From the NCBI RefSeq assembly GCF_014207595.1, contig NZ_JACHGY010000001.1:2610836-2674835 (forward strand): DNA of 64,000 nt, given 5' to 3'. The DNA comes from Algisphaera agarilytica. Its GTDB lineage: Bacteria; Planctomycetota; Phycisphaerae; Phycisphaerales; Phycisphaeraceae. Of this stretch, positions 39,413 through 49,305 are shown one piece after another (position 1 is the first letter of the stretch; each line of letters starts with the position of its first letter). Position numbers and translations under genes: made by a program. Below the pieces are notes generated by a model. It had not been told where the DNA came from, did no database searches, and saw only the letters and a program-made list of their open reading frames with translations.

Positions 39413-41659
39413 ATGGCCAGCGACGTACCACCGAGTAAACAGCAGACCGAGCAAACAGCTTCGGCCGAGATGTTGGACCCATCGCGTGGCCTGCCCGGTT
39501 GGGTCGCGCCTGTGGCGATGCTGTTGCTGGTTGTGGTGGGGGCGCTGCTGCGCTTTGTGAACCTCGGCGAACTCACGTTCCAGGTCGACGAGGGCTACCA
39601 ACTGCTCGGGGTGAAAGGCATCCTCGAGCACGGCGTACCCAAGCTCGAGTCCGGCCACGCCTACACGCGTGCGCCGCTGTTTCTCTACCTCGAAGCGGCG
39701 TGTGCGCAGATCCTGGGATTGACCCCGTTTTCGATGCGGTTGCCCGCCGCGGTGTTTGGGGTGTTGTGCATCCCGATCGCTTTTTGGTTTGGCCGAACGC
39801 TGGTGAACCCGGCGATGAGCTGGGCGCTGGCGGTGCTCATCACGTTCTCGCAGTGGCACGTTGAGTTGTCACGCTACGCCCGTTTCTACACGCTGCTGGT
39901 CGGCGTGTTCATGTTGGCGATGATCGCGTTTTATCACGGCTACATGCTGCGGAAGCACTGGCCGAAGGTGGCGTTCTGGGTGCTGGCGCTCGTCGCGATC
40001 ACCATCCACGACACCGCGGTTTCGATCGGGCTGGTGTTCCTGGTGTTGCTGCCGTACCGCGATCAGACGTGGACGCGTCGGGCGTTGCTGGTGGTGCAGT
40101 CGGGCGTACTCGGGGCGTGGTGGGTGTTCTATCGCAAGGCGCTGGGGGCGTGGACCAAGTCGTTGTCGGACGCGAGTCTGAATATCGTGCACACGACCAA
40201 CACCGAGGCGCAGGACGCCGCGGCGGAGGCGAGCAAGAAGCCGCTGAGTTTCCTGCCGGACGTGAAGCTGCCCTCGATGGAGAACACGGTTGAGGCCTGG
40301 CAGTTGAGTCCGTTGTATGTCGCGGTGCCGATCGGTATCGCGGCGGTGGGTTTCCTGGTGATGTTGCTGTCGGCCCGCAAGCTGCCCAAGCCCGATGCGA
40401 TCGGGCAGTTGCTCGTGGGCGCGGCGATGCTGCTGTTTGCGGGCATCCACCAGGGCGCGATCGTCGTCATGCTTGCGGTAACCGCAGCGGCGTGGTGGGT
40501 GCGGACACGACGCGACCTCTGGTCGCCGCTCGGCCTGGCGATGCTCGGCTCGGCGGCGATGCTCGCGGTGCACGCCGCGGTGAACGTGAAGTTTCTTTCC
40601 TATGGCTACGCACGCGGCGTGGTTTGGCTGTTCCGTTATCCCGATTGGAGCCGGTACTCGCTGGAGCACCTCTGGCGGGGTTGGTACGGGGTGTTTGGCT
40701 TGCTGCCGGTTTTGGCGTTATTGCCCGTGGGTTTGTTGTTACTGGCCAGGCAGTCACGCGACGAAGAAGGACGGCCGGCTGGGCCGTGGCTGATCATCGG
40801 CCTGCTGCTGCTGGGCCTGTGCCTGGGCGGCTTGGCGGAGGGGCAGTTCAACGAGACGCGTTACTTCTTCCACCTCTCGCCGATGATCTACGCGGCCTAT
40901 GCGGCGGTGTTTGTCGGCTTCGGCTTGTGGATTGCGGGGCTGTGGAAGCTCAAGAGCTGGGGCCGAGTGATCGCGGTGGCGCTTCCGATAGCGGTTGGGG
41001 TGGGCGCGGTTGAAGACTTCCGGCCCAACACGGCCTGGGGCGTGACCCAACGCGACTACACCGATGTCCGCAACCACGTGCGCGGCGTGTTCAACTGGCG
41101 CGCCTTTGCCGACTTCCACGAAGACGTCGAGAGCGTCAGCGTGTACGTCCGCGACAACATGGGGCCCAACGACAAGGTGCTCAGCGTTGGCCCGCCGCAC
41201 CGCGGGACGCTGGTGCATCACTTCATCGGGCAGATCGATTACATCGTGGCCCGGCCGATGGTGTTCACGCTCAAGCTCGAGGACGAAGAGGGCCGCTGGT
41301 ACGAGCCGAACAACGGCGCCCAGATCGTGGCGACGCCTGAGCGATTGCTCGAGGTGATTGCCGAGGTGAACGCTCAGGGCGGCAAGCTCTGGGTCGTGAG
41401 CAACGACCGGATGACGACGGAGCTGGCGAATCTGGTGGACCTGGACTACGCCGAGGTGCTGGAGTTGATCACGCCGCGGGATGCGCACGCGGTGCGTGGC
41501 CGAGACGAGAGTTCGTTCGCCGCGGTGGCGGTGTTGCCCGTGATTGAAAAAACGGGTGAGGATGAAGCCGTCTTGGCCGATGATGCCTTGGAAGACACCG
41601 AAGCGCCCGCCGAGCCGGTGGAAGAGGCTCCGAGTCCTTCGCCGCAGCCCGCCCCGTAA
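39413..41659 (+). CDS. GT39-like membrane glycosyltransferase (PMT/ArnT superfamily)
   Basis: A 748-residue GT-C protein, starting at ATG 39413 with AAGGGG seven bases upstream (two in-frame Met further upstream). The first helix is followed by NLGELTFQVDEGYQ, whose Asp-Glu in the first periplasmic loop is the catalytic acidic motif of the superfamily. A second conserved string, HVELSRYARFY, follows. About 12 hydrophobic helices end near residue 545, then a periplasmic domain (YTDVRNHVRGVFNW to VVSNDRMTTELANL) and a Pro/Glu-rich tail. Such enzymes use polyprenyl-phosphate sugars as donors, matching the DPM1-like enzyme at 30473. Confidence 0.82.
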   Translation: MASDVPPSKQQTEQTASAEMLDPSRGLPGWVAPVAMLLLVVVGALLRFVNLGELTFQVDEGYQLLGVKGILEHGVPKLESGHAYTRAPLFLYLEAACAQILGLTPFSMRLPAAVFGVLCIPIAFWFGRTLVNPAMSWALAVLITFSQWHVELSRYARFYTLLVGVFMLAMIAFYHGYMLRKHWPKVAFWVLALVAITIHDTAVSIGLVFLVLLPYRDQTWTRRALLVVQSGVLGAWWVFYRKALGAWTKSLSDASLNIVHTTNTEAQDAAAEASKKPLSFLPDVKLPSMENTVEAWQLSPLYVAVPIGIAAVGFLVMLLSARKLPKPDAIGQLLVGAAMLLFAGIHQGAIVVMLAVTAAAWWVRTRRDLWSPLGLAMLGSAAMLAVHAAVNVKFLSYGYARGVVWLFRYPDWSRYSLEHLWRGWYGVFGLLPVLALLPVGLLLLARQSRDEEGRPAGPWLIIGLLLLGLCLGGLAEGQFNETRYFFHLSPMIYAAYAAVFVGFGLWIAGLWKLKSWGRVIAVALPIAVGVGAVEDFRPNTAWGVTQRDYTDVRNHVRGVFNWRAFADFHEDVESVSVYVRDNMGPNDKVLSVGPPHRGTLVHHFIGQIDYIVARPMVFTLKLEDEEGRWYEPNNGAQIVATPERLLEVIAEVNAQGGKLWVVSNDRMTTELANLVDLDYAEVLELITPRDAHAVRGRDESSFAAVAVLPVIEKTGEDEAVLADDALEDTEAPAEPVEEAPSPSPQPAP

Positions 41660-41681
41660 GACGACCACGACCACGACCACG
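41660..41681 (+). repeat. Short hexanucleotide repeat (ACGACC)n
   Basis: About three and a half copies of ACGACC fill the whole gap between the GT39-like stop codon and the ATG of the WecG-like gene, leaving no Shine-Dalgarno. Confidence 0.7.
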
Positions 41682-42545
41682 ATGACGCAATCCGATTCTC
41701 AGACCGATTCTCCGTCCCCCGCCAGTTCCGAGCCCCCGCCGCGTCCTGCGGGTATCGACCTGCGTGGCGTGTGGTTCGACCGGGTGACCCAAGCCCAGGC
41801 GGTGGACCACATCATGGTCCACCTCGATGCGGGGCAGGGCGGTTGGGTGATTACCTCGAACCTGGACCACCTGCTCCGGTCCGGCCGGGACCCCGAGTTC
41901 CGGGCGATGCTGGATGAGTGTGACCTGGTGGTGGCGGACGGGGCCCCGCTGGTCTGGGCGAGCAAGATCCAGGGGACACCCCTGCCCGAGCGTGTGGCGG
42001 GCTCGGAGATGGTTTGGTCCATTGCTGAAGCCGCAGCCAATCGGGATAAAAGTGTCTTTTTGTTGGGCGGCGACCCCGGCACCGCAGACGCGTCGGGTGA
42101 GGTTTTGGTTAGGAAATACCCTAATCTTCGGATCGCCGGGACGTTCTGTCCGCCGATGGGTTTTGAAAAAGACCCCGAGCAGATGGAAGCGATGACCCGG
42201 GCGTTGCGTGAATCGGGGGCCGACCTGGTGTATGTGGCCCTGGGTTCGCCGAAGCAGGAGCGTTTAATCCGTGAAATCCGCGAGGTTTTGCCCGGCGCGT
42301 GGTGGCTGGGGGTCGGGATCAGCCTCAGTTTTATCGCTGGCGAGGTGAAGCAGGCTCCGGTCCTGATACGGAAATTCGGCATGGAATGGATGCACCGGAT
42401 GCTCCAGGAACCCAAGCGATTGGCCCGGCGATACCTGATTGATGGTATCCCGTTTGCATTTGTTCTGATATCCTCAAGTGTCCTGCGACGCGTGGTCAAA
42501 AACCGTGCGGAGCTGGAAACACCCGCGGGCAGGAGGTCCGCATGA
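41682..42545 (+). CDS. WecG/TagA/CpsF family glycosyltransferase (GT26)
   Basis: A 287-residue GT26 enzyme, starting at ATG 41682; the upstream extension is a Thr/Lys-rich artefact of a tandem repeat. After a Ser/Pro-rich lead come the family motifs: WVITSNLDHLLRSGRDPEF, VVADGAPLVWASK (catalytic Asp), VFLLGGDPGTADA, YVALGSPKQERLI and SFIAGEVKQAPVLIRKFGMEW. Members transfer N-acetylmannosamine(-uronic acid) or glucose to lipid-linked GlcNAc, usually as the second sugar added. The C-terminal helix may be membrane-associated. The surroundings fit early repeat-unit assembly. Confidence 0.92.
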   Translation: MTQSDSQTDSPSPASSEPPPRPAGIDLRGVWFDRVTQAQAVDHIMVHLDAGQGGWVITSNLDHLLRSGRDPEFRAMLDECDLVVADGAPLVWASKIQGTPLPERVAGSEMVWSIAEAAANRDKSVFLLGGDPGTADASGEVLVRKYPNLRIAGTFCPPMGFEKDPEQMEAMTRALRESGADLVYVALGSPKQERLIREIREVLPGAWWLGVGISLSFIAGEVKQAPVLIRKFGMEWMHRMLQEPKRLARRYLIDGIPFAFVLISSSVLRRVVKNRAELETPAGRRSA

Positions 42546-42723: not shown

Positions 42724-43701
42724 ATGCTGTTCAGGATTACCGATCAGAGCACGATTCAGACCGGACGCCACCCCGGATTGGGGCGGCTGGGCCACCAATT
42801 ATCGGACCTCCGGGCCGTGGTGCTGCTCGCCGGTTCCGTGCGCGCCAACCAGCTCCGCAAAGCGACCGGCCGCAGTGCGCTGGAGATGCCCGTGGGCAGC
42901 AACCGCTCGGTGCTGGACTGCTGGCGTGAGCAACTGGTCACCATGGCCGAGCAGCTCGGGATCGCCAACCTGCCCGTCCGCGTGATGGTCGACCAGGCCA
43001 GCGGCATGACGCCCGGCGTGACTCAGCATGGCCCGGTGCAACTCTCCATCGAAATCGACCCCGGCGAGTTCCGCGGCACCGGCGGGCTGCTGTCGGACAT
43101 CGCCCGGGAGTACCGCGACGACGACCTGATCCTGGTCACCCACGCTTCGCAGCTGCTGTTCGAGCCGTTGGCTGAGCTGTCGGGCGCGATGGCGGAAGTC
43201 CACGCCGACGTGAGCATGATCTGCAGCGCCAACGGCACGCCCAGCGGGCTGATGCTGATGCGTTGCGGGTGCCTGCGTGACATCAACCCGGTAGGGTTTG
43301 TCGACCTCAACGAGCAAGCGCTGCCTTCGATCGCTGAGTCCCACGATGTCCGCGTCGTGCGCTACGACCAGCCGACCTCGCGGTCGCTGCGGACGTTGCC
43401 GGCGTACCTCGAAACGCTTCGTGAATACCACCGCCGACAGGCCGGCCCCAACGACAACTCGCCTCACCGCGAAGACTGGGAGAAAACCTTCGGCATCGTC
43501 GAGCCCGGTGCCCGCGTCCACGAGACCGCGATCATCCACGATTCGGTGATTCTCTCGGGCGCCCGTGTCGAGGCCCACGCCGTCCTGGTCCGCAGCGTCG
43601 TCTGCCCGGGCGTGTTGGTCGCTCGCGACCAGTCCGAAGTCGATTGCGTGGTCGGGGCCCGCGTCAACGGCAACCACTTCGTATTGCCCGCCCAATCCTG
43701 A
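42724..43701 (+). CDS. Degenerate nucleotidyltransferase-like protein with left-handed beta-helix tail
   Basis: A 325-residue protein with the layout of sugar-1-phosphate nucleotidyltransferases. LRAVVLLAGSVRANQLRKATGRSA occupies the place of the AGGxGTRLxPLT signature, but the GG and GTR residues are absent; PVGSNRSVLDCWREQL fits the following helix. From about residue 257, hexapeptide turns (IVEPGARVHETAIIHDSVIL, ARVEAHAVLVRSVVCPGVLV) form a left-handed beta-helix. It is probably a non-catalytic or altered-substrate relative. TAGGGA about ten bases upstream supports the ATG. It stands alone with 178 bases before it. Confidence 0.7.
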   Translation: MLFRITDQSTIQTGRHPGLGRLGHQLSDLRAVVLLAGSVRANQLRKATGRSALEMPVGSNRSVLDCWREQLVTMAEQLGIANLPVRVMVDQASGMTPGVTQHGPVQLSIEIDPGEFRGTGGLLSDIAREYRDDDLILVTHASQLLFEPLAELSGAMAEVHADVSMICSANGTPSGLMLMRCGCLRDINPVGFVDLNEQALPSIAESHDVRVVRYDQPTSRSLRTLPAYLETLREYHRRQAGPNDNSPHREDWEKTFGIVEPGARVHETAIIHDSVILSGARVEAHAVLVRSVVCPGVLVARDQSEVDCVVGARVNGNHFVLPAQS

Positions 43702-43865: not shown

Positions 43866-44747
43866 ATGATCTCGCGGCGACTGACAAAAAACGGCTGGAC
43901 GGTCTGGCACCTCATGTCGGCGATCACGATCGTGATCGCGGCGATGGCGGTGACATGGCGCGGCTGGGCGCAGATCATCGAGTTGGGTGTGACCCGTCCG
44001 GTGGCGGGCCACGTGTTCCTGGTGCCGGTGGTGGCGGTGTGGCTGGCGTGGGTGCGTCGCAAGCGGATGCTGCTGTGCCGCCCGTCGGGCTCGTTCCCGG
44101 GGATCGTGATCGCGGCGGTGGGCGCGGCGGCGTACGTGTACGGCGACAAGCGGGTGTACCCTTGGCTGTTCCACCTCGGGGCGGTCCTGCTGCCGGCGGG
44201 GTGTCTGGCAGCGATCATGGGCCGGCAAGTTCTCAAGTCCTACCTCCCGGCGTTTGTGGTGCTGCTGGGGCTGATCCCACCGCCGATCGCCTGGGCCGAG
44301 CAACTCGCCCAGCCGCTGCAGGTGGCCACGGGCAGCCTGACCTGCTGGATGTACTCGCTTTTGGGGTCCACCGCCTCGCTCAACGGCCAACACATCCGTA
44401 TTGGCGACGCGTCGATGCGGCTCAACGATGTGTGCAGCGGCCTGCCGATGGCGATGTCGCTGTTCCTGGTCAGCTACGGCTTCGTGTTCGGGGTGCCGCT
44501 GCGGATGTCGGTCCGGCTGGTGGTGCTGCTGCTGAGCCCGATCTCGGCGATCGTGTGCAGCGCCTTGGCCCTGCTCGGCACTTTCTGGCTGTACGGCGGG
44601 ATGTCGCAGGAGATGGCGGGGGTGTGGCTGCAGGTCGGGGAGTGGATCATGCTGCTGGTGGCGTTCCTGCTGCTGGTGGGGGCGATCCGCGGGCTGACCT
44701 GGGCCTCGGTGCCCATCCGGCGCTACACCCTGTCCTACGACCAATAA
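43866..44747 (+). CDS. Exosortase-family membrane protein, active site incomplete
   Basis: A 293-residue membrane protein with about eight hydrophobic helices and clear exosortase/archaeosortase architecture: LQVATGSLTCWMYSLLGSTA, then GQHIRIGDASMRLNDVCSGL, matching the conserved region that ends with the nucleophile Cys (C190). The next expected features are an NxxR motif and a later His. Here the corresponding SPISAIVCSALAL and YGGMSQEMAGVW stretches lack both Arg and His. Typical exosortases cleave PEP-CTERM sorting signals and are found in polysaccharide loci of biofilm bacteria. No protein in this window ends in a recognisable PEP-CTERM signal. It may be a regulatory or transport variant. 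Confidence 0.75.
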   Translation: MISRRLTKNGWTVWHLMSAITIVIAAMAVTWRGWAQIIELGVTRPVAGHVFLVPVVAVWLAWVRRKRMLLCRPSGSFPGIVIAAVGAAAYVYGDKRVYPWLFHLGAVLLPAGCLAAIMGRQVLKSYLPAFVVLLGLIPPPIAWAEQLAQPLQVATGSLTCWMYSLLGSTASLNGQHIRIGDASMRLNDVCSGLPMAMSLFLVSYGFVFGVPLRMSVRLVVLLLSPISAIVCSALALLGTFWLYGGMSQEMAGVWLQVGEWIMLLVAFLLLVGAIRGLTWASVPIRRYTLSYDQ

Positions 44748-45259
44748 CGCAATGGCCCCAGGGCCTGCCCGGAAAGGCGTCCGGAGAATCGGGGAGCTGG
44801 AAGAAATCGATGAAAAAAGACCCGCCGAATATCATGGCCCACCGCGATCCCGGGCCGATAAATACCGTAGTATCTGTGCCCGGGGTGGGTTTGCAGTGCT
44901 TCCGAGGAGTGCGAAGGGTTTTGGATCAAAGCCCAAGCCAGTGGCGGGTATAGTGTTGGCCGGGAAGCCGTAAATCGGTCGCTCGATATGGACGAAATGA
45001 ACCGTATGAGGTGAGCCGCTTGTCGCGGCATCGATGGATTGAGCGCCGAGGCCGATGCCTCGGCACGCAGCGCTGAAACGGGCCCAGGGCCCGAATCCAA
45101 GAACCCCGGGCGTCTGAAGGACGCCCACGATCAGGGACCCACGGGATGATTGCTCGGTACGACGGCCAATCACCCCCTCCGCGTCCCGCGTCGGGAGGTT
45201 CGAACAGCCCCCTTTACGATACGGCCGGCCCCCCGGCCTCAGGACGCGGAAAAAGTGCG
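44748..45259 (+). other. Leader region of the co-polymerase gene
   Basis: No supported gene. Near its end a perfect stem GGGCGTC/GACGCCC with loop TGAAG (45108-45126) is not followed by T, so it is a leader hairpin rather than a terminator. The frame of the following gene is open back to 45146 (ATG with AGGGA upstream), which is the alternative start. Confidence 0.5.
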
Positions 45260-47668
45260 ATGAGTGACGAACTGAACTTCAACGCCCCCAGCGGCACCCC
45301 CGTGATGCAAACCACCGGCGACGACGACTCGTCGCAGCGTCGCGAAAAGCTCATGTCTCTTCTGCGCGGCCGGCTCCACTGGGCCGTCCTCCTCTCGCTC
45401 ATCCTCGGCGGCGGCCTGGGCTACCTCGGCTACTCCAGCGTCGTCCCCATGTACCGCAGCACCGGCCAAGTTGTGGTCGAGAGCGAAGAACTGATCTTCG
45501 ATGGCATCGACGATTCCACGAGCAAGAAACGCTGGTACAGCTTCGTCGCCCGTCAGCAGCAGATGCTGCGCAGCCAGGAAGTCGCCGAGCGCGCGATGGC
45601 GTCGGACACCTGGAAGAGCCGCGGCGATGAGGCCGTGGAATGGACCCCGCAGCAATTCTCCAAGGCCATCGACACCGAGATCGATGAGCGTAACAACGAC
45701 AAGAACATCTTCACCATCTCCTTCGACGCACCGGACGCGATCACCGCGGGTGTCGGCAACCGTGCGTTGCTCGACGCCTACAGCGAAGAGTTCGACTACC
45801 GGGCCGAGACGCGTTTCATGAACCGCGTCACGCAGCTGCAGTCGCAGGTGCAGAAGTCGGAGATCAAGATCAAGCAGTACCTGGCTCAACGCCGGACCGT
45901 GCTGACCGACTACGAGTTCAATCAGATGGAAGCCGACATCCGGGCGCTGACCAACCAGCGGATCGAGCTCCAGGAAAACCTCGACACCGTCCGCGCCGAG
46001 CTCAACTCGCGCAACCCCATCCAGGAAGGCATGTCCACGAACCCCGCGGACCTGATCTCCAACGATCCCGTTCTGAATCAGATGCAGATCCAGATCGACG
46101 AGATCGAAGACAGGATCAAGGTGTTGGAGTTTGGCGGTAAAGGCCCCGGCCACCGTGAAGTCAAAGGCCTTAGCGCCGAACGTGACGTGCTCAACGCCAA
46201 GATGGAAGTGCGTATCGAGCAGCTGCTCAGCGAAGACATCGACGCCCTGATCGGCGACCCCGAGTACGACCGTCTGCGTCAGCTCGAACAGCTCTGGCAC
46301 CGCCAACTCGCCGATGTGCAGAGCCGCCTCGAAAAGCTCAACGCCAAGCAGGCCGAGGTCGCCGACCTCCAGGAGCTGATCGACGACGAGCAGCGGATCA
46401 TCGACAAGTCGCGTGACAGCATCAACGAGATCAACGTCGAGATGGACTCGCTCAAGGGCACCATCGACATCTTCGCTCCCGGGGCGACCCCCAGCTCGCC
46501 GGACAACGGCGGCAAGGCCAAGCAGGTCGCCGTGCTCGGCGGCATGGCCGGCACGGGCATCGGCTTCGGTTTCGTGATGCTGCTGGGTCTGCTCGACAGC
46601 CGCCTGCGTCACGCCGGCGACGCCCGCATGGGCCTCCGCGACACCCGCATGCTCGGCATCCTGCCGACGCTGCCGGAAAACTTCGCCGACCCCGAGCAGT
46701 CCGAACGGGCCGCTCACGCCGTGCACCACATCCGCACGCTCCTGCAGATTTCCAACCGCGGCACCGCCCGCGTGTTCAGCGTCACCAGCCCCGCCGCGGG
46801 CTCGGGCAAGAGCTCGCTTTCGGTCGCGATGGGCCTGTCCTTTGCCGCCAGTGAATCCAAGACGCTGGTCATCGACTGCGACCTCGTGGGTGCGGGCCTG
46901 ACCCGCCGCGTGGGTGCGGTGGTGAACCGCTCGGTCGAAGCGATCCTCCGCGAGGACACCGTGCTGACCGACGACCAGATCGCCAACGCCATGAGCCACG
47001 CCCGTGAGAAGGGCACCAACCTGAAAGACGCCCTCGTCGAACTGGGCATGCTCACCAAGAAAGACCTGCAGCGTCTGAACCGTCGCCAGGCCGACTCGGC
47101 GCTGGGCATCCTCGACGCCTGCCAGGGCCGCCCGTTCAGCGAGTGCGTGGCCAACACCGGCATCGAGAACTTCAACGTCCTGCCCATCGGCGCCGCCAAG
47201 CCGCAAGATGCCGGCCTGCTGTCGCCCAAGGCTATCCGCAATCTGATCGCCCGTGCCCGGGAAGAGTACGACATCGTCCTGCTCGACACCGGCCCGTGCC
47301 TGGGCTCACTCGAAGCGTCGATGTGTGCCGCCGAGGCCGACGCCACCGTGCTCATCGTGTCGCGTGGCGACTCCAAGTCGATGGCCACCAAGGCCCGCGA
47401 CCACCTGATCTCGGTCGGCGCCAACGTCGTGGGCTGCGTGTTCAACCACGCCCTCGAGGCCGACATGAACAGCGCGTCCTTCGCGTCGATCGTCAGCCAG
47501 GAACGCCGCACCGACCCCGCCCAGAGCCTGCTCTCGGCCGACCCCGCCATCGCGGCCCGCTTCGGCCCGCTCGGCTCGGCGGTCGCCGCCTTCGGCACGC
47601 CCAGCAAGTCGCCCAACGGCAAGCCCCGCCGCCAATCCGTCGCCAACGGAAGCAGCAACGGGCATTGA
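45260..47668 (+). CDS. Wzc-like polysaccharide co-polymerase/BY-kinase with helical insertion
   Basis: An 802-residue protein (from ATG 45260; 840 from 45146). It has a cytoplasmic lead, TM helix 1 (LHWAVLLSLILGGGLGYLGY), a large periplasmic coiled-coil region (~170-400), TM helix 2 (~420-443) and a C-terminal P-loop kinase. Walker A is GSGKS (514-518), Walker A' VIDCDL (D539, D541), Walker B VLLDTGP (D676). Between A' and B about 45 extra residues (~568-612; LTDDQIANAM...DALVELGMLTKKDLQRL) resemble the MshEN/GspE-N helical hairpin. The usual C-terminal Tyr cluster is missing; the tail is Ser/Asn-rich. It likely sets chain length and drives export, but autophosphorylation on a tail is doubtful. 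Confidence 0.88.
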   Translation: MSDELNFNAPSGTPVMQTTGDDDSSQRREKLMSLLRGRLHWAVLLSLILGGGLGYLGYSSVVPMYRSTGQVVVESEELIFDGIDDSTSKKRWYSFVARQQQMLRSQEVAERAMASDTWKSRGDEAVEWTPQQFSKAIDTEIDERNNDKNIFTISFDAPDAITAGVGNRALLDAYSEEFDYRAETRFMNRVTQLQSQVQKSEIKIKQYLAQRRTVLTDYEFNQMEADIRALTNQRIELQENLDTVRAELNSRNPIQEGMSTNPADLISNDPVLNQMQIQIDEIEDRIKVLEFGGKGPGHREVKGLSAERDVLNAKMEVRIEQLLSEDIDALIGDPEYDRLRQLEQLWHRQLADVQSRLEKLNAKQAEVADLQELIDDEQRIIDKSRDSINEINVEMDSLKGTIDIFAPGATPSSPDNGGKAKQVAVLGGMAGTGIGFGFVMLLGLLDSRLRHAGDARMGLRDTRMLGILPTLPENFADPEQSERAAHAVHHIRTLLQISNRGTARVFSVTSPAAGSGKSSLSVAMGLSFAASESKTLVIDCDLVGAGLTRRVGAVVNRSVEAILREDTVLTDDQIANAMSHAREKGTNLKDALVELGMLTKKDLQRLNRRQADSALGILDACQGRPFSECVANTGIENFNVLPIGAAKPQDAGLLSPKAIRNLIARAREEYDIVLLDTGPCLGSLEASMCAAEADATVLIVSRGDSKSMATKARDHLISVGANVVGCVFNHALEADMNSASFASIVSQERRTDPAQSLLSADPAIAARFGPLGSAVAAFGTPSKSPNGKPRRQSVANGSSNGH

Positions 47669-47874: not shown

Positions 47875-49305
47875 ATGATCACCCCGTCCGAACTGACTAC
47901 GCAATACGACGACCCCTCGGTGCCCCACACCGTGTGGGGGCTCGACGCGGTGCAGCTGCACGACCGCTTCTGGGCGGCCCGCGGGGTGCAGGTCGTTCGC
48001 CTGGGCGAGCCGTCGGACCTGGTGGAAGACGCCGAGCTGTTCCTGCTCACCGACCCGCACTCGCTGTCGATCTTCCGGCTGGGGCAGCTCGTCGACACGC
48101 TGAGCTGGCTCAAGCCCAAGGTGCTGTTCGTGCGTCTGCACAACACCCAGGAGCAGGGCTACTCCGAACGCGTGATCACCGACGAGAACGACCGCTTCAC
48201 CCGCTTCGAGCGCGTGTACAGCTCGCCCGACTGGCGGCTGGGGCGGGTCGCGCTGACGCCGTCGCGTGAACTGGCCCAACTCTGGCAACAAGCCTCGGAC
48301 GCCCGCACCGCTTGGCGTCTGCTGCGTCGCACGATCCCGCCGAACCAGCGGACGACCCTATCGGTCGGCGGCTGCGTCTACGACCGCGCCGAGGAATCGC
48401 AGGTGACCGAATTCATCCGCGAGTTGGTCACCGTCTGGAAGCGTCCGGACGCCACCATCCAGCGGGCCTCGCGTCTGGACCAGCAGGCCTGGGGCGATGT
48501 CACCGGCTCACGCCCCGACCACACCCGCTTCATCGGCCCGGTCTGGGTCGGCGCCGGCCGCGAACTCAGCCACGCCGGCTCCATCGTCGGCCCCGCCGTG
48601 CTGTGGGACGTCCCCGAGCAGCGCCCCGAAGTCGAAGAGCTGCAGTGGAAGCAGATCGAACTCACCGACGTGCTCACCGGGCCGATCAAGGTCCGCACGA
48701 TCTCGAACGTACAACGCGGGCTCAAGCGTTTGTTCGACCTCGGCTTCGCGCTGATTGCTTTGCTGCTGACCCTGCCGATCTATCCGCTGGTTATGCTGGC
48801 GATCCTGATCGAAGACGGCCGGCCGTTCTTCTTCGCCCACACCCGCGAGTCGCGTGGCGGCGTGAACTTCCCCTGCCTCAAGTTCCGCACCATGCGGAAG
48901 GACGCTGAGGACATCAAGAAGAAGCTGATGGAGCAGAACCAGGCCGACGGCCCGCAGTTCTTCATCGACGACGACCCCCGCATCTCGCGCGTCGGCAAGT
49001 TCCTCCGCGCGACCAACATCGACGAGCTGCCGCAGTTCCTCAACGTCATCGCAGGGCACATGGCCATCGTCGGCCCGCGCCCTAGCCCGTACAAAGAAAA
49101 CCAGTACTGCCCGCCGTGGCGCGAAGCCCGCCTCTCGGTCCGCCCCGGCGTCACCGGCCTGTGGCAGGTCAAGCGCTCCCGCGACGCCGGCCGCGACTTC
49201 CAGGAATGGATCCGCTACGACATCGAGTACGTCGAGAACTGGTCCTGGCGGATGGACCTCTACATCATCCTCAAGACCATGGCCGCGTTCGTCGGCATGA
49301 AGTGA
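47875..49305 (+). CDS. Initiating phosphoglycosyltransferase (bacterial sugar transferase family)
   Basis: A 476-residue protein. The C-terminal ~195 residues are the polyprenyl-phosphate sugar-1-phosphate transferase domain (WbaP/WcaJ type): RGLKRLFDLGFALIALLLTLP starts the membrane hairpin, followed by CLKFRTM, DPRISRVGKFLRATNIDELPQ, IVGPRPSPY and RPGVTGLWQV. It loads the first sugar-phosphate on undecaprenyl phosphate. The first ~280 residues are not the usual four-helix or CoA-binding-like region. They form a soluble domain with a short hexapeptide-like stretch (GPVWVGAGRELSHAGSIVGP). The start is preceded by a repeat block, with no clear Shine-Dalgarno. Confidence 0.9.
   Translation: MITPSELTTQYDDPSVPHTVWGLDAVQLHDRFWAARGVQVVRLGEPSDLVEDAELFLLTDPHSLSIFRLGQLVDTLSWLKPKVLFVRLHNTQEQGYSERVITDENDRFTRFERVYSSPDWRLGRVALTPSRELAQLWQQASDARTAWRLLRRTIPPNQRTTLSVGGCVYDRAEESQVTEFIRELVTVWKRPDATIQRASRLDQQAWGDVTGSRPDHTRFIGPVWVGAGRELSHAGSIVGPAVLWDVPEQRPEVEELQWKQIELTDVLTGPIKVRTISNVQRGLKRLFDLGFALIALLLTLPIYPLVMLAILIEDGRPFFFAHTRESRGGVNFPCLKFRTMRKDAEDIKKKLMEQNQADGPQFFIDDDPRISRVGKFLRATNIDELPQFLNVIAGHMAIVGPRPSPYKENQYCPPWREARLSVRPGVTGLWQVKRSRDAGRDFQEWIRYDIEYVENWSWRMDLYIILKTMAAFVGMK

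Follow-up and report, generated by a model that had tools for sequence, protein, structure and literature searches.

A putative pseudo-exosortase retained in an exopolysaccharide operon of Algisphaera agarilytica and its relatives

Exosortases of the EpsH family (PF09721) are bacterial membrane enzymes that serve PEP-CTERM sorting and normally anchor proteins at the cell surface. The founding description of the family places three motifs (C-x-G, N-x-x-R, H-x-x-x-G) close to the membrane's outer face (PMC1569441). The haloarchaeal archaeosortase ArtA likewise has a Cys nucleophile, and the H. volcanii enzyme requires Cys173, Arg214 and Arg253, according to PMC9263693. Pseudoenzymes in general have lost catalytic residues, retained the fold and coexist with an active paralogue, all of which holds for the proteins described below. 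A search of the open PMC literature, subscription papers lying outside its scope, found no paper on an exosortase pseudoenzyme or a catalytically inactive exosortase. A group of homologues that has lost the sorting site while staying in an exopolysaccharide (EPS) operon bears on why exosortases occur in such operons.

We analysed a window of 64,000 nucleotides from the 4.17-Mb genome of Algisphaera agarilytica. The open reading frame at 43866-44747 (+) starts with ATG, encodes 293 amino acids and is a real gene. Its product matches PF09721 with 102.3 bits (cut-off 25.7) over model positions 3-252 of 254 and, by this profile, clearly belongs to the exosortase family, whereas none of the NCBIfam exosortase models attains its own cut-off. 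Fold, length, predicted helix pattern, C-x-G and EPS operon context agree with the EpsH family (PMC1569441); the N-x-x-R and H-x-x-x-G motifs and the operon's DUF3485 partner are absent. The relevant features of the window are as follows.

41544-42545, + strand: WecG/TagA/CpsF glycosyltransferase (PF03808, 188 bits); the true start is probably further in.
42724-43701, + strand: left neighbour with a C-terminal hexapeptide-repeat-like region (weak Pfam match), conserved beside the slot.
43866-44747, + strand: putative pseudo-exosortase gene (8-TM EpsH fold; Arg and His lost, Cys kept; PF09721, alignments, AlphaFold2).
44433-44435, + strand: codon of C190 in the retained C-x-G motif.
44559-44570, + strand: canonical N-x-x-R position, reading S-A-L-A in the window protein (alignments).
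44628-44630, + strand: canonical His position (residue 255), Leu in the window protein (alignment).
44748-45145, + strand: 398-base gap where canonical operons carry a DUF3485/EpsI gene; it holds no DUF3485 and no convincing remnant.
45146-47668, + strand: right neighbour, a Wzz/Wzc-like chain-length protein with a BY-kinase-type ATPase domain (TIGR01007, 90 bits, below cut-off; AAA_31).
47875-49305, + strand: polyprenyl glycosylphosphotransferase, the initiating sugar transferase (PF02397, 197 bits).

The first-pass annotation had described an exosortase fold with an intact VCSGL nucleophile motif, a degenerate N-x-x-R stretch and no His in the expected region, and alignments bear out each of these points. 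The Cys motif reads VCSG (C190-S-G192). Residues 232-235 are S-A-L-A and residues 255-259 are L-Q-V-G-E, at positions where canonical rows have Arg (91/91) and His (91/91), and no His occurs anywhere downstream of the Cys.

Matches were found in 83 of 151 related genomes, in 207 of 397 genomes of the class and in 32 of 51 of the family, and the comparison set comprised 101 distinct homologues from 88 genomes and 67 genera. The triad is missing in ten of the 101, which all belong to one Phycisphaeraceae-like family and represent five of its genera; the remaining 91 have Cys, Arg and His, as do all 60 compared rows from outside the family. Besides the window protein, genus g19 contributes five, with the Cys intact, Ala or Ser in place of the Arg and Arg in place of the His. 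The two g6 proteins have Gly for Cys and Met for His and retain the Arg; the single g4 protein has none of the three, and the single g7 protein has a deletion around the Cys. Thus, among the nine proteins from other genomes, the Cys is replaced in three and its region deleted in a fourth. The recurrence of the window's pattern in five genomes of another genus shows that it is not a sequencing error.

In a tree built without the columns around the catalytic residues, the ten proteins form one clade with moderate support (85/92, below 95) and long branches. The closest sequence to the window protein is a canonical exosortase from the same operon slot (L014; 42% identical), which differs in having its own triad and DUF3485 partner intact. 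A tree joining the window protein with L014 was not rejected by the AU test (p-AU 0.162), so the triad may have been lost more than once. The fused exosortase of the window genome (L001) was kept in the tree and left out of the canonical comparison, which therefore has 90 rows. Scanning contigs of close relatives with the window protein alone gave no match, and a six-row profile (A1) gave 11 loci with no new member of the clade; eight of them belong to genomes already in the comparison, and three (L207, L210, L216) are canonical.

We then compared the surroundings of these genes. At pseudo and canonical genes alike the recurrent order is WecG, hexapeptide protein, exosortase, Wzc/BY-kinase and sugar transferase, and the pseudo-exosortase directly follows the hexapeptide gene of an EPS operon in 10/10 genomes. 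The order is broken in G005, which has no Wzc after the gene, and in G046 and G049, whose stretches showed no WecG; some canonical contigs also end early or miss one neighbour. At all 18 canonical slot loci examined, a DUF3485 gene comes after the exosortase, and the assignment of five partners was checked with Pfam. None of the ten pseudo loci, the window included, has DUF3485 in the slot. A DUF3485 profile run across the window and the pseudo loci found only the separate intact pair that G046 and G049 carry upstream of their hexapeptide gene; this profile is not exhaustive, having missed the DUF3485 part of the fusions in G023 and L001. Searches of the window gap and four empty slots for remnants of DUF3485 or exosortase returned chance-level matches only. 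Such empty slots, with the hexapeptide gene adjoining Wzc and neither exosortase nor DUF3485 between them, account for 9/9 loci in the own-genus species G001 and G002, in g14 and in g9; a tenth, in G050, appears empty on a short contig. With two species of its own genus among the close relatives whose slot is empty, whatever role the pseudo-exosortase plays is dispensable.

The sorting system of the window genome is intact and separate, with all known parts present apart from the pseudo-exosortase. Three exosortases exceed the Pfam cut-off; besides the window protein these are L001 and L002, in which Cys, N-x-x-R and His are all present. L001 includes a fused tail resembling DUF3485 (25.4 bits, slightly below the 26.1 cut-off), and a DUF3485 gene (33 bits) follows L002. 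No PEP-CTERM protein had been seen in the window at first pass, and the interval (C1:2610836-2674835) indeed contains no match; genome-wide, 67 of 90 listed matches exceed the Pfam cut-off, but these coexist with the two intact exosortases. The annotation had also considered an intact sorting system elsewhere that uses the window protein; the system is there, but there is no sign of its using the window protein. Near the fused exosortase, at a distance of no more than about 8 kb, are two PEP-CTERM proteins (L001 and L010: G000:C1:1290249, 1292970, 1297687).

A second, intact exosortase that the A1 profile detects (the A1 type) is present in 10/10 pseudo genomes against 1/15 canonical-slot genomes of the family (G024), with a Fisher p of 3.4e-6 that ignores kinship; by genus the counts are 5/5 and 1/12. 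PF09721 finds three exosortases in nine of the pseudo genomes and two in the tenth, which is 70% complete. In eight of the ten the intact exosortase lies at a separate place with DUF3485 adjoining (L057 to L062, L127, L130), and in G046 and G049 the intact exosortase-DUF3485 pair sits in the same operon, on the opposite side of the hexapeptide gene. Empty-slot genomes have the A1 type in 4/4 cases in g1 and g14 and in 0/6 in g9, where other exosortase types are present, which speaks against a strict second-exosortase rule. As a separate observation, G024 also carries an additional hexapeptide-Wzc-sugar transferase operon without an exosortase (L199, C7).

An intact exosortase in every pseudo genome, in two of them just across the hexapeptide gene, would be expected if the pseudo-exosortase were a regulatory or helper partner of the active enzyme, joining it in a mixed complex or holding PEP-CTERM tails uncut, and degenerate copies of another kind do stand beside intact pairs in G028 and G023. 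However, in the other eight pseudo genomes the A1-type pair is at a different place or contig, and E46, S48, R144, N180 and R194, which plausibly belong to the substrate pocket, are gone from all ten proteins. We consider such a partnership unlikely.

The slot gene could also be a functionless relic drifting to loss after the second exosortase-DUF3485 pair took over. The empty slots in G001, G002, G015, G038 and g9, the long branches of the clade and the different residues lost in different genera would all fit decay. Against this, the reading frames are open in 10/10 pseudo-exosortase genes, and pN/pS is 0.28-0.72 in six pairs from g19 and g6, with every 95% interval below 1, although in several pairs dS is at or close to saturation. 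These values fall in the range of neighbouring genes. For G020-G039 the pseudo gene has a dN of 0.164, below those of WecG, the hexapeptide gene and Wzc, whereas for G046-G049 its pN/pS is above its neighbours'. The estimates come from the g19 and g6 pairs, the window gene having no close relative. Loss of catalytic residues together with apparent purifying selection in these pairs is the pattern of a pseudoenzyme, and, with 93% of conserved cytoplasmic-half residues retained, a decaying relic appears decidedly improbable.

We compared 55 columns, each at least 85% conserved across the 90 canonical rows, on a topology predicted from helices, from the positive-inside rule, from the MEMSAT statement in PMC1569441 and from the triad's published location towards the outside. 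The ten pseudo proteins retain 46% of the 37 columns assigned to the periplasmic half and 93% of the 18 assigned to the cytoplasmic half (p 5e-6 on this predicted topology, with columns that are not independent and a half-way line set by us). The window protein retains 54% and 100%, respectively, while canonical rows retain at least 78% and at least 72%. At three thresholds, without the mid-membrane columns and the triad, and when each genus was represented by a single row, the contrast persisted (p 7e-8 to 0.02). H255 is, with the five putative pocket residues named above, among the residues gone from all ten proteins, whereas R64, R217, P211, W279 and P283 are among those present in all. Gly, Pro, Trp and Phe account for many of the cytoplasmic-side residues that were kept, and these may serve only to hold the fold. 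AlphaFold2 models of the window protein and of a canonical exosortase (L206) have pLDDT values of 81.6 and 82.4 and nearly identical helices; no solved relative was found by sequence, or by fold at E <= 0.001.

Could C190 still be the nucleophile of an altered enzyme in the window and g19 group, with new helpers such as E259? C190, G192 and E259 are invariant there (6/6), and canonical rows have Gly at 259 (98%). About one fifth of the columns are invariant in this group, however, so that C190 alone is weak evidence, and the Cys is lost in sister genera. Among basic residues, R64, R65, R67, R213 and R217 alone are invariant, and all five lie in predicted cytoplasmic loops. The lost residues thus have no substitute common to the group, be it Arg, Lys or His, and no invariant basic residue is left on the predicted periplasmic side. 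An archaeosortase-type site of Cys, Arg and Arg is also lacking. The Arg at the g19 His position presumably corresponds to Arg253 of ArtA, but the first catalytic Arg is absent, the two positions reading Ala and Leu in the window protein and Ala or Ser and Arg in g19. ArtA requires both Arg residues in addition to its Cys. We consider an altered enzyme very unlikely.

We favor, with a probability of roughly 65%, a pseudo-exosortase that was kept because it contributes to polysaccharide assembly without catalysis, in the membrane or facing the cytoplasm. The first-pass proposal, that the exosortase is inactive or repurposed and linked to polysaccharide export, is the best-supported reading; a regulatory role, the other option raised then, is possible. 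An ancestral EPS-operon exosortase would have been paired with a DUF3485/EpsI partner; a second exosortase-DUF3485 pair would then have taken over sorting, the slot copy losing its catalytic pocket and its partner in lineages with the second pair, and the slot gene later being deleted in several lineages. Selection would have preserved the fold and the conserved cytoplasm-facing residues. Because the constraint lies mostly away from the catalytic face, a non-catalytic membrane role near the cytoplasmic EPS enzymes is suggested, most likely as a scaffold or docking subunit for the adjacent machinery, with the sugar transferase, WecG and Wzc/BY-kinase as candidate, unproven contacts.

An enzyme kept intact in a slime-making cluster despite the apparent loss of its cutting site suggests that the exosortase family may have a second, non-cutting job. 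We regard as possible, if doubtful, the wider idea that exosortases in general have a non-catalytic function on the cytoplasmic face, tied to EPS assembly, and that the pseudo-exosortases lost the sorting half and kept the EPS half. In this clade the polysaccharide link stands apart from protein sorting, which offers a way to test exosortase roles beyond cutting PEP-CTERM tails. Pfam-based exosortase counts, moreover, include copies that, to judge from their sequences, are inactive.

Several proteins outside the clade were also inspected. A low-scoring protein in G027 (C36) was set aside as a member of another subtype, its triad being intact by eye. The copies in G028 and G023 are degenerate, but of another kind, and were likewise rejected as members of the clade. 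Each lies directly beside an intact exosortase-DUF3485 pair (L172 7617-9401, + strand; L173 8473-10689, - strand); the G023 copy is fused to DUF3485, and the G028 copy, read by eye, apparently has Ser at the Cys position. Within the window, the Wzc/BY-kinase ATPase domain weakly matches an MshE-type cyclic di-GMP-binding motif at 46943-47089 (NF053729, 24.2 bits, cut-off 38).
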